64,000 nt of DNA from Gemmataceae bacterium (GTDB taxonomy: Bacteria; Planctomycetota; Planctomycetia; Gemmatales; Gemmataceae). Under the pieces are notes generated by a model, which worked only from the letters and a program-made list of their open reading frames with translations, made no database searches and was not told where the DNA came from. The position numbers were made by a program, and so were the translations under genes. Location of the stretch: the NCBI GenBank assembly GCA_022842245.1, contig JALHPZ010000016.1:62001-126000 (forward strand), read 5' to 3'. Below, one piece after another: positions 1,765 through 5,933 of this stretch; the first letter of the stretch is position 1; each line of letters begins with the position of its first letter.

Positions 1765-2138
1765 AGGAGATCCTGTCACCGGCCGAAATGGCCGAGAAAT
1801 TGTTGATCGGCCACTACTCGCGACACGTCTTCCTGTGCATTGGCGACGCGTGCTGTTCCGCCGAGGCCGGCGCGAAGGCGTGGGAAGTGCTCAAGGACGT
1901 ATTAAAACGCCGTAATCTCTCCCTCGCCACCGGACCCTGCGCAAGCTACCGCACCAAGGTGCAATGCCTGCGCGTTTGTTCCGGCGGTCCGATCCTGGTC
2001 GTCTACCCCGAAGGGACCTACTACGCCGGAATGACGGCCGAACGCATTCCGGAGTTCGTGGAACGGCACCTCGTGAATGGCGCACCGATCGAAGAATGGA
2101 TCTTCGCGCGGAACCCGCTGCCTCGATCTACACCTTGA
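1761..2138 (+). CDS. Thioredoxin-like [2Fe-2S] ferredoxin
   Basis: This 125-residue protein starts at a GTG that overlaps the stop of the P-type ATPase (GTGA arrangement). Cysteines at about residues 26, 31, 32, 60, 69 and 73, with the later pair as CLRVC, match thioredoxin-fold [2Fe-2S] ferredoxins of the NuoE/Aquifex type. The tail GGPILVVYPEGTYYAGMT is typical of the stand-alone '(2Fe-2S) ferredoxin domain' family. It is a soluble electron carrier whose partner is not identifiable here. Coupling to an ion pump is unexpected and may only reflect operon packing. The last 11 bases overlap the convergent amidohydrolase gene. Confidence 0.85.
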   Translation: MKEILSPAEMAEKLLIGHYSRHVFLCIGDACCSAEAGAKAWEVLKDVLKRRNLSLATGPCASYRTKVQCLRVCSGGPILVVYPEGTYYAGMTAERIPEFVERHLVNGAPIEEWIFARNPLPRSTP

Positions 2139-3330
2139 AGATCTCGCGCACGTTGTCGCGCAGGAGCCGTGTGCCGAGCGCAACCGCTTCCGTCTCGTTC
2201 AGCAGGCCGGGCCGCACGAACTCGTCCGCGATCGTCCGCGCGAGGATGCGGCGGTACATGCCGTACTTCGGCAGCACGAACTCCAGCTTGTACGCGTCCG
2301 AGTAGTAGCCGACGAGTTTTGTTTTCGGCACGCCCTGCAACCGCTCGCGCAGGTCGGCGGAGATGTAAGCGGGGATGTTCGAATACCACCAGTGCCCATT
2401 CGGCACCACGTTCGGGAAGATCCACGAATACGCGACCAGTTCCTGATTCTGCCCGCTCGTGAGCACCGAGATCGGGAACGTCACGTCGGGGAAGGCGTTG
2501 AACAGTTCCTTGTACTGGATCAGCGAGCATCGGCGGTCGAAGAGGTCCTGCCCCTGGAAAACGCCGTTCTCGTACACGCGCCGGTTGACGCCGATCATCA
2601 GATCGAACGGCAGCTTGAACTCCCGGCAGTTCTCCGCCAGCATCCAGAATATGCTGCTCCCTTTCTCCGTCGGCGCGAAGTCCGGCGGCAGCGAGATCGC
2701 GCATGCCTTCGCCCCCTTCGACACGAACTTCTCGAACAAAGCCCGGATCGCCTTCTTCAGCGTCGGCAGATCGCCCGCGTCGATGCCGGTCGCCTTCGCC
2801 AACCGTTCGCGAACGCCCGGCTCCTGGAACTTGAACACCAGCGTATCCGTCCGAAGACACGGCACGTACTTCGACGTGTCGAAGCCCTCGAGGTTGTCGT
2901 CGAACTCGTTGGTGAGGAAGATCTTTTCGAGTTTGGTCTTCGCGAAGACCTGGGCTTCCCAGTCCTTCGCCGCGAACCGCTTCACGCTCTCGTCGAACAG
3001 CGAGTCGGCGTCCGCCGCCGTCACGCGGTCGCCGGTGAAACCGAGGAAGTTACGGCAGATCTCCACGAACCAGCGATACTGGGCCGTATTGTCGTAGCGG
3101 TCCATGTGGCGGATGATCTCGCGGCAGCGAGCCTTCGGGTCGGCGTCCTTCGCCAGCAGCGTCTGCGGCATCCCGGCCGAGTGCGCCAGTTCCGTGTAGT
3201 AGTGGTAGCCGAGGATGTCGTCGAGCGACCGCGAGACGGGCGAGAGTGGATCGATGTGCGAATGCGGATCGATCAGCGGAATCGCATCAAAGGCGGCGGT
3301 CAGGGATTGAACGAGTCCATCGGCGAGCAT
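2128..3330 (-). CDS. Amidohydrolase-family protein, uronate-isomerase-like
   Basis: A 400-residue protein with the N-terminal metal-binding motif DPHSHIDP (HxH of amidohydrolase TIM barrels) at about residues 21-28. Its overall layout resembles the uronate isomerase (UxaC) branch: an early 'GYHYYTELAHSAG' segment and a C-terminal 'KLVGYYSDAYKLEF' block. It is shorter than classical UxaC (about 470 residues), so a lyase/hydrolase or isomerase acting on a sugar acid or related small molecule is possible. The substrate cannot be read from sequence. It has no signal peptide. The 3' end overlaps the convergent ferredoxin gene by 11 bases. Upstream lies the hairpin-rich gap that follows the penicillin-acylase gene on the same strand. 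Confidence 0.8.
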   Translation of the reverse strand: MLADGLVQSLTAAFDAIPLIDPHSHIDPLSPVSRSLDDILGYHYYTELAHSAGMPQTLLAKDADPKARCREIIRHMDRYDNTAQYRWFVEICRNFLGFTGDRVTAADADSLFDESVKRFAAKDWEAQVFAKTKLEKIFLTNEFDDNLEGFDTSKYVPCLRTDTLVFKFQEPGVRERLAKATGIDAGDLPTLKKAIRALFEKFVSKGAKACAISLPPDFAPTEKGSSIFWMLAENCREFKLPFDLMIGVNRRVYENGVFQGQDLFDRRCSLIQYKELFNAFPDVTFPISVLTSGQNQELVAYSWIFPNVVPNGHWWYSNIPAYISADLRERLQGVPKTKLVGYYSDAYKLEFVLPKYGMYRRILARTIADEFVRPGLLNETEAVALGTRLLRDNVREIFKV

Positions 3331-3497
3331 GGCGGTAATTCCGGGAAAGTTTGTCGATTTTACCGATGGCCTGTCTTACGCCGGCGGGCAGAAATTACAA
3401 TTCAAGCGAGTCCGGAAATGATTTTCGCTGGGAAACCAGCCTTTTCGAATAAGCGGACCGATTGGCACGGCCCATGCATATTCCCTTTCGTCCGACA

Positions 3498-3682
3498 CGG
3501 TTCCCCCAACCGGCCGGACGGTGCGAGAGCCGCGACGGCGGCCTTCCCCCAAGGTATCGTCGATCCCCCCAAGATCGCGGTTCCCGCACCCGAAGCCCCC
3601 GGCGGGTCCCCCACTCGCCGGACATCTCGAAGGACACGTCAATCATCCCCCCGCCACTCCGCCGTTCCCCCAACGGCGGAGT
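3498..3682. repeat. Series of five hairpins with C5 (minus strand G5) loops
   Basis: The gap 3331-3689 holds no credible gene. It contains five short inverted repeats whose loops are runs of C on the + strand (G on the - strand): 3498-3512 (5-bp stem), 3542-3554 (4 bp), 3561-3577 (5 bp), 3599-3621 (9 bp with one G-U pair) and 3656-3682 (11 bp). The stem sequences differ from unit to unit while the loop stays C5, usually flanked TT/AA. This looks like conserved structure and not copied sequence. On the minus strand, the direction of both flanking genes, the transcript would carry five G5 loops. Confidence 0.6.
3656..3682 (-). terminator. Hairpin after the penicillin-acylase gene
   Basis: A perfect 11-bp stem (3656-3666 with 3672-3682) and 5-nt loop begins 8 bases after the minus-strand stop codon of the hydrolase gene. 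There is no U-tract after it on that strand, so termination is inferred from position and stem strength only. It is also the last unit of the hairpin series. Confidence 0.45.
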
Positions 3683-3689
3683 TGGTCTT

Positions 3690-5933
3690 TTATTGGGGTG
3701 ACAATCGCAAGCTCGCGACGGCGGAGCGGATCGCCTCGTTGGGCGTCCACGCGATCGGAATCGATTCGCCCGACTGCCAGAGCTCGAATTGATCGGCGTA
3801 CTGTTCCGTGCAGGGATTGCCGCTCTGGCCGCCGGCCAGGACGAACCGCGAGTTGGACCAGTTCCCCACGTCGAAAACCGCCCGCAGGTTAGGGATGTTG
3901 TGCGTGTACGCGAGCGGATCGCCCGGCTTCGCGGCGCACTGGAGGACGGTATTGGAATCGCCGCCGGCCGGCACGGGACCGACGTTGAACGCACGGCCAA
4001 GCCAGTGATCCTTGAAGATCGGATGTTCGAGCCGGAGTTGCCGCAGGTCGCCCCATTGCCAGAACGCCGGGCCGGGCCCGCGCGTCGAACGCAACTCGCG
4101 GACGACCTCCCGGAGCGTCTCGCGAATCACTTCCGTCCAATACTCCTCGAACCAGCCATCAGGCTTGGTTCGCAGGAGACCGACTAGATGCGCCACGCGT
4201 CGCTCGGAGAACAGACTGCCCGAAAACGGCTCGTCGTCGCCGACCCCCAGCACGGCCTTCCAGGCGGTCGGCGCCTTCGCCTTCGCGATCCGCACCGCGA
4301 GCTTCGACACGAGCAACTCGAAGACCGTCGCCGCCGGCGCGTCGGCCGCGACGCGGCCATCCCAATCCCGCAACAGGTCCAAGCCCAGCCGCACTTCGGC
4401 GTCCCCGTCGTCCGTCGTGGCGAGCACGATCTCGCGGATTTCCTCCCAGGGCATCGACCGGACGTTCCGATGGAGTTCGCCACATAGCAGCACACTCCAG
4501 TCCGTCCGCCGCGACAGTTCGTCGCGGATGATCCGCGCACGGTACGCGTCGATGAAATCGTCCCCGAATCGCCCGTCGCCCGTCGGATCATCGTTCGCCG
4601 TCGCGAGGAATCCTCCGGCCGGATTGACCGTGAACGGCATCTCGTCGAACGGGATCAACCCGTCCCAAATGCTTTCGTCGGCGGGCAGCGGAATCGCGCC
4701 GTTCCCGCGGATTCGCCGGGGAAGCTGACCGACGAGTTGATGCGCGATCGTTTCCGTTTCGTCCGCATAGACGAGATTCATCGGCAACGATGGCCAGGCC
4801 GCGAAAGGGCGGCGGAACGCTTCGAACGAACGCGCCCGCGGAGAATCGAAGAATCCGCGCAAGGGCAGCGGTTCCAGCCAGACCGCCCGCATCGCGAGAC
4901 ACTCGCGTTCGTTTTCCCAGACCACTGGTCCGCGCGGCGTCATCACGACGGCCAGTTCTTCATCCGGACCGTCCGCGACGCGAATCGTCTCACGGATGCG
5001 CGGGAATGTGTCGCTCGGGGTCTCGATCACAAGGTCGGTATTGTCGGTCAGGCCGGCGGTCACGCCCCAGCAGGCGAAGCCGTTGTGTCCGATCGGAAAG
5101 ACCGGAGCGCCGACGAGCGCCGCCCCGGCGACAGCCCAAACCGGCGTGTCGACGTGCGCGAGGTACCACGGTGCCGGCACCGACGGCGCGAGGTGCGGGT
5201 CGTTCGCTAGGATCGGCCGACCCGTCGCCGTGCGGCTCCCCGCGATCACCCAGTTATTGGAACCGCCGCCGCGACCGAACACGCGCAGGAACGCCGCGAT
5301 GTCGTCGGCGACGGGATTCGGACCGGTCCGGATATTGCCGATTTCAATCGATGCCGGGTCGAGCGCCCGCAGCGCGTCCGCGCCGTCGGTCCGGAGGATC
5401 TGCAGTCGCGCCAGCTCGACATCCCAATTCGAGGGCAGCAAAAATGTCTGCAGTTTGACCAGCCCCAGCACGTCGGCCGGTTCCCACTTCGACAGCGGAG
5501 CTTTCAGTAGCTGGCATTCGTGCGGCGGTTTCACACCGGCAAAGCCGTGAGAGGCGTTCACGCCGGCGACGAACGCCGCGAGCGCCGCTCTGATGTCCGG
5601 GTCGACGACGGCGAGTTGCGCGTCGGCCGCACGCCGGAACCCGATCCGCCGAGCGATGCGGTCCACCGGCAGTGCGTCCTTGCCGACCAGTTCGGCGAGC
5701 GTGCCGCGCATCACGCGAAGGAGCATCTCGAGTTGAAAGCCGCGATCCTGCCCTTGCACGAACCCCAGACCGAAGAACGCGTCGGGCTCGTTCTCGGCTT
5801 CGATGGTGGGCACGCCGTGCTTGTCGCGGCGGATCGTGAGGTTGGCACGGAGGCCGGCGAGCCGATGCTCGCCGGAGATGACCGGCCGCCGTGCACCGAG
5901 TGCCAGGCGCAAAAGGAACTGCGGGAATGTCAT
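3690..5933 (-). CDS. Penicillin acylase family protein (Ntn hydrolase)
   Basis: The 747-residue length is normal for the penicillin amidase (peptidase S45) family. The N-terminal part carries the alpha-chain signature (KHGVPTIEAENEPDAFFGLG, then GFVQGQDRGFQLEM). The mature beta chain begins at the autocatalytic serine in GGGSNNW (Ser225), followed by ANDPHL. The family cleaves amide bonds of acylated substrates such as beta-lactams, acyl-homoserine lactones or N-acyl amino acids. The true substrate is unknown. No convincing signal peptide is visible, which is unusual since many relatives are exported. It lies 28 bases downstream of a DUF1501 gene on the same strand, suggesting one transcript. 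Confidence 0.9.
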   Translation of the reverse strand: MTFPQFLLRLALGARRPVISGEHRLAGLRANLTIRRDKHGVPTIEAENEPDAFFGLGFVQGQDRGFQLEMLLRVMRGTLAELVGKDALPVDRIARRIGFRRAADAQLAVVDPDIRAALAAFVAGVNASHGFAGVKPPHECQLLKAPLSKWEPADVLGLVKLQTFLLPSNWDVELARLQILRTDGADALRALDPASIEIGNIRTGPNPVADDIAAFLRVFGRGGGSNNWVIAGSRTATGRPILANDPHLAPSVPAPWYLAHVDTPVWAVAGAALVGAPVFPIGHNGFACWGVTAGLTDNTDLVIETPSDTFPRIRETIRVADGPDEELAVVMTPRGPVVWENERECLAMRAVWLEPLPLRGFFDSPRARSFEAFRRPFAAWPSLPMNLVYADETETIAHQLVGQLPRRIRGNGAIPLPADESIWDGLIPFDEMPFTVNPAGGFLATANDDPTGDGRFGDDFIDAYRARIIRDELSRRTDWSVLLCGELHRNVRSMPWEEIREIVLATTDDGDAEVRLGLDLLRDWDGRVAADAPAATVFELLVSKLAVRIAKAKAPTAWKAVLGVGDDEPFSGSLFSERRVAHLVGLLRTKPDGWFEEYWTEVIRETLREVVRELRSTRGPGPAFWQWGDLRQLRLEHPIFKDHWLGRAFNVGPVPAGGDSNTVLQCAAKPGDPLAYTHNIPNLRAVFDVGNWSNSRFVLAGGQSGNPCTEQYADQFELWQSGESIPIAWTPNEAIRSAVASLRLSPQ

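Follow-up and report, generated by a model that had tools for sequence, protein, structure and literature searches.

A predicted sigma-54-dependent RNA with repeated C5 loops in the Gemmataceae, possibly a sponge for a C-loop-binding protein

Introduction

What is encoded by inverted repeats whose loops stay constant while their stems change from unit to unit? Such repeats occur near the start of a 64,000-nucleotide stretch of DNA from a Gemmataceae bacterium (the window), between a UxaC-like gene for a glucuronate-isomerase-like amidohydrolase (2128-3330, minus strand; Pfam UxaC 28 bits against a cut-off of 25), and a penicillin-amidase-family gene (3690-5933, minus strand). A preliminary description held that constant loops on varying stems are the pattern of a structured RNA or a binding array, a proposal that the results below strongly support. 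To our knowledge, planctomycetes have hardly been studied for post-transcriptional control. The combination of a single invariant loop motif with a promoter, an upstream site and a terminator that can all be recognised offers a concrete entry point to RNA control in the Gemmataceae.

A predicted RNA gene on the plus strand

A sigma-54 (-24/-12) promoter element, TTGGCACGGCCCATGCA, lies on the plus strand at 3462-3478, with its GG at 3464-3465 and its GC at 3476-3477. The spacing TGGCAC-N5-NTGC, together with activator-type sites further upstream, is that expected of a sigma-54-dependent transcription unit. The predicted +1 (~3489), 12 nt 3' of the -12 GC, coincides with the first base of the first conserved stem. 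At the other end, the GC-rich hairpin ACTCCGCCGTT-CCCCC-AACGGCGGAGT (3656-3682), with 11 pairs and a C5 loop, precedes TGGTCTTTTATT, and the two form an intrinsic terminator at 3656-3694; the hairpin plus TCTTTTATT has the arrangement typical of such terminators, 11 pairs and then the U-run TGGTCTTTTA, and the U-rich tail is retained in relatives. All four members of the genus carry the correctly spaced element TTGGCA(C/T)-N6-TGCA, of which TTGGCA and TGCA are invariant, and across the Gemmataceae the corresponding position holds a sigma-54 element too.

The UxaC-like gene is the syntenic partner of the locus and is divergent to it in all four genus members, whereas G000/G001, G002 and G003 each have another gene on the far side; the penicillin-amidase-family gene, which is convergent and whose 3' end meets the terminator in the window, is not beside the RNA in G002 or G003. 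The locus having its own promoter and terminator, a constant divergent neighbour and a variable far-side neighbour, it is best read as a free-standing RNA gene on the plus strand. Because length differences between orthologues are not multiples of three, it is likely to be non-coding. The plus strand folds at -92.2 kcal/mol (z = -5.0), with none of 200 shuffles equally stable. A structured RNA of ~205 nt at 3489-3693, rather than part of a minus-strand transcript, is therefore a strongly supported prediction from the sequence.

Hairpins and C-runs of the locus

Seven runs of at least five C are present on the plus strand of 3489-3693, starting at 3503, 3546, 3565, 3596, 3608, 3647 and 3667. 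The first stem, P1 (3489-3520), consists of an outer CGTCCG/CGGACG helix and the inner hairpin CGGTT-CCCCC-AACCG (3498-3512), with its C5 loop at 3503-3507. P2/P3 (3520-3590) is an outer helix, 3520-3535/3575-3590, around the hairpin CCTT-CCCCC-AAGG (3542-3554; C5 at 3546-3550), and carries an unpaired C6 at 3565-3570 on its 3' side; the same arrangement is found in orthologues of several genera. P4 (3599-3621) is the hairpin CCGGCGGGT-CCCCC-ACTCGCCGG, with 8 of 9 positions paired and the C5 loop at 3608-3612. A further unpaired C6 run lies in the linker at 3647-3652, where TCCCCC is kept in all four genus members. Counting the terminator hairpin, the RNA thus has C5 loops on four hairpins, plus two C6 runs that are unpaired.

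Four of the five C5 inverted repeats originally listed for the locus are confirmed by this structure. Although a fifth hairpin (CGATC-CCCCCAA-GATCG, 3561-3577) is possible on paper, it is absent from the minimum-energy fold and from the relatives, its C6 run lying in an internal loop of the larger helix 3520-3535/3575-3590. Of two extra C-runs that had been pointed out, the one at 3596-3600 partly overlaps the fourth stem, and the other is the conserved linker run. The proposed rhythm of about 20 bases does not hold, the run starts being spaced by 43, 19, 31, 12, 39 and 20. On the plus strand of the window, there are no C5 hairpins with a stem of at least 5 pairs besides the four of the locus, and on the minus strand a single C-run has a stem of 6 pairs and a few others have stems of 4, a comparison that is a list of observed cases only, since shuffling creates additional C-runs. 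Exact copies of TTCCCCCAA number 3 in the window, against 0.41 expected.

Conservation and placement of the loops

When 41 relatives were searched at the DNA level, the element turned up in the three other genomes of the genus, at identities of 96%, 73% and 72%. The hairpins are kept in these orthologous gaps. The outer stem of P1 reads CGTCCG/CGGACG, CGTCTG/CAGATG or CGTTCG/CGAACG among the relatives, indicating compensatory change, and the P4 stem is swapped for TGGCCCGTT/AACGGGCCA in G002 and for CCGCGGGTT/AACTCGCGG in G003; the changes in P4 and in the terminator stem are likewise compensated. Across 13 orthologues from several genera, the outer stem P1 is paired in 100% of cells, compared with 96% when the 3' arms are re-dealt. 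The corresponding values for P2 are 96% and 55%; the first of these takes in a shift of register by one base between genera and is therefore an overestimate of true compensation. These counts were made on hand-aligned arms, as MAFFT with RNAalifold, applied to all 13 sequences, aligned the long helix wrongly and retrieved P1 and P3 only.

The placement of the C-runs was assessed in 46 RNAs of the family by shuffling that left the C-runs intact and shuffled the remaining bases. In the minimum-energy folds, 185 of 260 C-runs (71%) lie in apical loops, as opposed to 22% in the shuffles, and 246 (95%) are unpaired, as opposed to 64%. Every one of the 46 RNAs is more stable than its own shuffles (z from -2.4 to -11.4), and the hairpins are far in excess of what shuffled sequence yields. 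A test that does not depend on folding gave the same picture: perfect 4-bp stems flank 56 of 158 distinct C5 runs, compared with a mean of 12.9 and a maximum of 22 when the 3' flanks are re-dealt. Viewed from the loops, 192 of 225 apical loops (85%) contain C4 or more, and U directly precedes 233 of the 260 C-runs. The RNAs are partly orthologous, so these counts are not independent events, and the shuffles ignore shared ancestry. As the RNAs were found through their C-runs, the number of runs is no evidence in itself; the evidence lies in the placement of the runs in loops and in the agreement across types that cannot be aligned.

Distribution in the Gemmataceae

That a class of such RNA genes exists in the Gemmataceae can be held with high confidence. 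A strict pattern (TGGC-N8-TGC followed by two TCCCCC) occurs in 46 of the 95 genomes of Gemmataceae, while the reversed control gave few matches. A slightly tighter form (TGGCAY), applied to 392 genomes across the phylum, matched the window's own genome and one of the 391 others, probably by chance, and gave 4 matches in the control. The promoter-plus-C5 pattern is, in its strict form, essentially absent from the 391 other planctomycetes. Many Gemmataceae genera share the layout, often at a locus that diverges from the UxaC-like gene, and it occurs elsewhere in the form of unalignable paralogues, up to about seven per genome. Gemmata-type genomes hold several of these RNAs, G050 having six by a one-run pattern in addition to the UxaC-linked one, whereas one genus, g20, seems to be without them. 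All that the unalignable types share is a sigma-54 promoter, a first stem close to +1 that often starts with CGTC or CGTTC, C5-C8 loops and, usually, a terminator hairpin with a C loop of its own.

By strict criteria and hand count, the promoter followed by at least three C5 runs is found at 44 of 64 Gemmataceae loci upstream of a UxaC-like gene. In the sister family, a sigma-54 element is present at 4 of 6 UxaC-like loci (L127, L128, L156, L157), again divergent to the UxaC-like gene, but what follows it is a methyltransferase-like reading frame that lacks C5 loops; at one Gemmataceae locus (L152), the element precedes a universal-stress-protein-like frame. One genome, G055, has the UxaC-like gene and a type-A RNA on one contig (L007, L093) separated by ~23 kb, indicating that synteny can be broken without loss of the RNA. 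Another, G072 (L012, L031, L034, L035), contains 41-bp tandem repeats that include TTCCCCCAA but do not belong to the sigma-54 type.

A scan of 84,980 genomes returned 115 stretches; among the 80 inspected, most non-Gemmataceae matches resemble chance, with 2-3 C-runs. One stretch from Desulfovibrio (L216, 1825-2010) combines a sigma-54-like promoter, C5-loop hairpins and a C5-loop terminator (GAGCCTTCGGTCCCCCTCCGAAGGCTCTTTT) and is a possible independent case outside the planctomycetes. Clusters of C-runs without a promoter proved uninformative as a search handle, being mostly proline-rich coding sequence. The Rfam 15 covariance models, at gathering and relaxed thresholds, gave no relevant match to the window element and 36 homologous or related loci, hitting tRNAs only, and searches of the open-licence literature brought up no account of such RNAs in planctomycetes. 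The combination of features and its family-wide scale appear to be new, the single ingredients being already known from other bacteria.

Upstream sites and a putative regulon

Enhancer-binding proteins of sigma-54 promoters bind 70-150 nt upstream. In the window, putative activator half-sites (TTTTACC, GTCTTAC, ATTACAA) lie on the plus strand within 3350-3440, a stretch that includes the divergent promoter region of the UxaC-like gene as well, and the TTACAA is 68 nt 5' of the -24 element. Sites of the form TTRCAA/TTGYAA precede the sigma-54 element at 20 of 23 UxaC-linked loci (2.5 in shuffles) and at 36 of 44 other loci (4.9 in shuffles), mostly 70-150 nt 5' of the promoter and often paired ~19-23 nt apart. 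From these common sites, we infer a single regulon of multi-loop RNAs under one enhancer-binding protein. Sigma-54 control of chaperone, protease, UspA and CsrA genes has been reported in Planctomycetia (PMC12316311), which makes a stress-type stimulus for the RNAs plausible.

Small proteins of ~50-75 aa with a core resembling VEEMLRDIAFVLRMTRRVK form a family whose genes, in most members examined, also have a promoter of the same kind just 5' of them (L326-L329, L332-L334, L336-L339, L343, and, in the window's own genome, G000:C8:59032-59282, minus strand). This family has no significant match in Pfam or NCBIfam, and in several of its mRNAs C5 runs are present, be it in the leader, at the coding start or in the terminator.

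Candidate functions

The reading that we favour, at a probability of roughly one half, is that the Gemmataceae RNA is a sigma-54-dependent sponge that would titrate a putative C-loop-binding protein by the logic of CsrB and RsmX/Y/Z. A putative enhancer-binding protein would bind the repeated TTRCAA/TTGYAA sites ~70-150 nt upstream and activate sigma-54 RNA polymerase, the transcript would stop at its own C5-loop terminator, and the stems would serve solely to display 4-9 single-stranded UCCCCC motifs. With the activator on, the RNA would be made and would capture a factor recognising single-stranded UCCCC(C), thereby lifting or imposing the effect of that factor on mRNAs. A protein is the most likely partner because only the loop motif is kept, in 4-9 copies, on several unalignable RNAs under one control system. 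CsrB/CsrC and RsmX/Y/Z similarly repeat one short loop motif many times on variable stems, comprise several unalignable RNAs under common control and have their own promoter and terminator; their motif, however, is GGA, whereas here it is UCCCCC, under sigma-54 control. CsrA itself was rejected as the partner, since GGA is found in or at only 1 of 225 apical loops of the Gemmataceae RNAs. A wider form of the proposal, to be taken as tentative, is a Gemmataceae sigma-54 regulon with paralogous sponge RNAs as its main RNA output, which may titrate an undescribed poly-C-loop-binding regulator in a Csr-like manner, with UCCCCC in place of GGA and without Hfq. From such a class one would expect a single activator, a single stimulus and a single C-loop-binding partner; a protein in this last role would represent a new type of global RNA-binding regulator.

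The main rival to the protein sponge, somewhat doubtful but to be taken seriously, is that the same sigma-54 RNA regulates by base-pairing, its UUCCCCC loops kissing G-rich motifs near the translation starts of many mRNAs. The model for this is sX13 of Xanthomonas, a 115-nt RNA with three loops and an apical, C-rich 4C/5C motif that is independent of Hfq (PMC3771888). Apical C-rich 4C/5C loops are found here as in sX13 and the C-rich staphylococcal sRNAs, UCCCC loops are equally able to pair with G-rich mRNA as they do in sX13 (PMC3771888), and Hfq was not detected in any of the 95 Gemmataceae genomes. Moreover, there is no G5 run in the 8810 nt of the 46 RNAs, indicating that the loops stay free. 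The RNAs described here differ from sX13 in having 4-9 C-runs, a sigma-54 promoter and several paralogues per genome; up to nine identical loops per RNA, together with several paralogues, exceed what a few targets would need. AGGGGGA upstream of ATG is ~2.2 times as frequent as its reversed control in nine Gemmataceae genomes, but seven outgroup genomes outside the family show an equal, ~2.25-fold excess and thus no sign of co-evolution, and GGGGG occurs in the start region of none of the 45 predicted genes of the window. Neither figure gives a signal of G5 Shine-Dalgarno targeting that is specific to carriers. If the partner is G-rich mRNA, this would be the most loop-rich case of regulation by C-rich sRNAs known to us.

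A role in cis, as a leader or regulatory element for one of the adjacent genes, is improbable compared with a trans-acting RNA. Such a role is suggested by the type B paralogue, which, at most of the loci examined, lies just 5' of a gene on its own strand. In the window, however, the downstream gene is convergent and the terminator sits at its 3' end, and among orthologues the downstream neighbour varies, with the constant UxaC-like neighbour being divergent. A leader role may apply to the second RNA type, which lies upstream of a conserved gene whose product mostly starts with M(S/N)AP(V/L)YV, with a TATAAT-like box between the two (L039-L041, L043, L044, L046-L051, L053, L054).

Two readings are very improbable. 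A minus-strand transcript of the flanking genes that forms G5 loops or a G-quadruplex, as the preliminary description envisaged, is in keeping with a minus strand that is somewhat more stable than its shuffles (z = -2.75), but the lower z of the plus strand and the position of promoter and terminator on it make the loops C5, with no need for a quadruplex, and the orientation of the C-runs relative to the sigma-54 element is constant in orthologues though the intervening sequence has changed. Equally hard to credit is an array acting as DNA, the C-runs or inverted repeats being binding sites or a mobile palindromic repeat, since these intergenic inverted repeats are not scattered copies of one sequence, their stems change with compensation, and a promoter on the 5' side and a terminator at the 3' end enclose them.

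Sigma-54-dependent RNAs in other bacteria

Sigma-54-dependent small RNAs include Qrr1-5 of Vibrio and CrcZ of Pseudomonas, both Hfq-linked, the Qrr RNAs being multi-copy and CrcZ titrating a protein. The Gemmataceae RNAs resemble them in predicted sigma-54 dependence and in copy number (Qrr) or proposed protein titration (CrcZ), but differ from these Hfq-linked RNAs, which have other motifs and no C5 loops. Another such RNA, Pxr of Myxococcus xanthus, has a loop that is probably a C-run. Pxr is a sigma-54-dependent stem-loop sRNA of a host that lacks hfq, paralogues of it exist, and its SL1 loop is essential, a single C-to-A change abolishing function (PMC5568312, PMC5684412). The likeness lies in the sigma-54 promoter, the -24/-12 element here having the correct spacing. 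Pxr comprises three stem-loops and is encoded next to pxrR, an NtrC-like gene, whereas the RNA described here has many more C loops and is flanked in the window by the UxaC-like and penicillin-amidase genes, with no adjacent NtrC-like regulator. Tandem units reminiscent of Pxr were observed in Myxococcales/Polyangiaceae (L218, 3874-4000 and 4203-4330; L242, 5619-5740 and 5919-6040), but with no NtrC-like gene adjoining; each unit comprises a sigma-54-like promoter, a hairpin with a UUCCCCCCCC loop, a second hairpin with a C6-C8 loop, and a long U-run.
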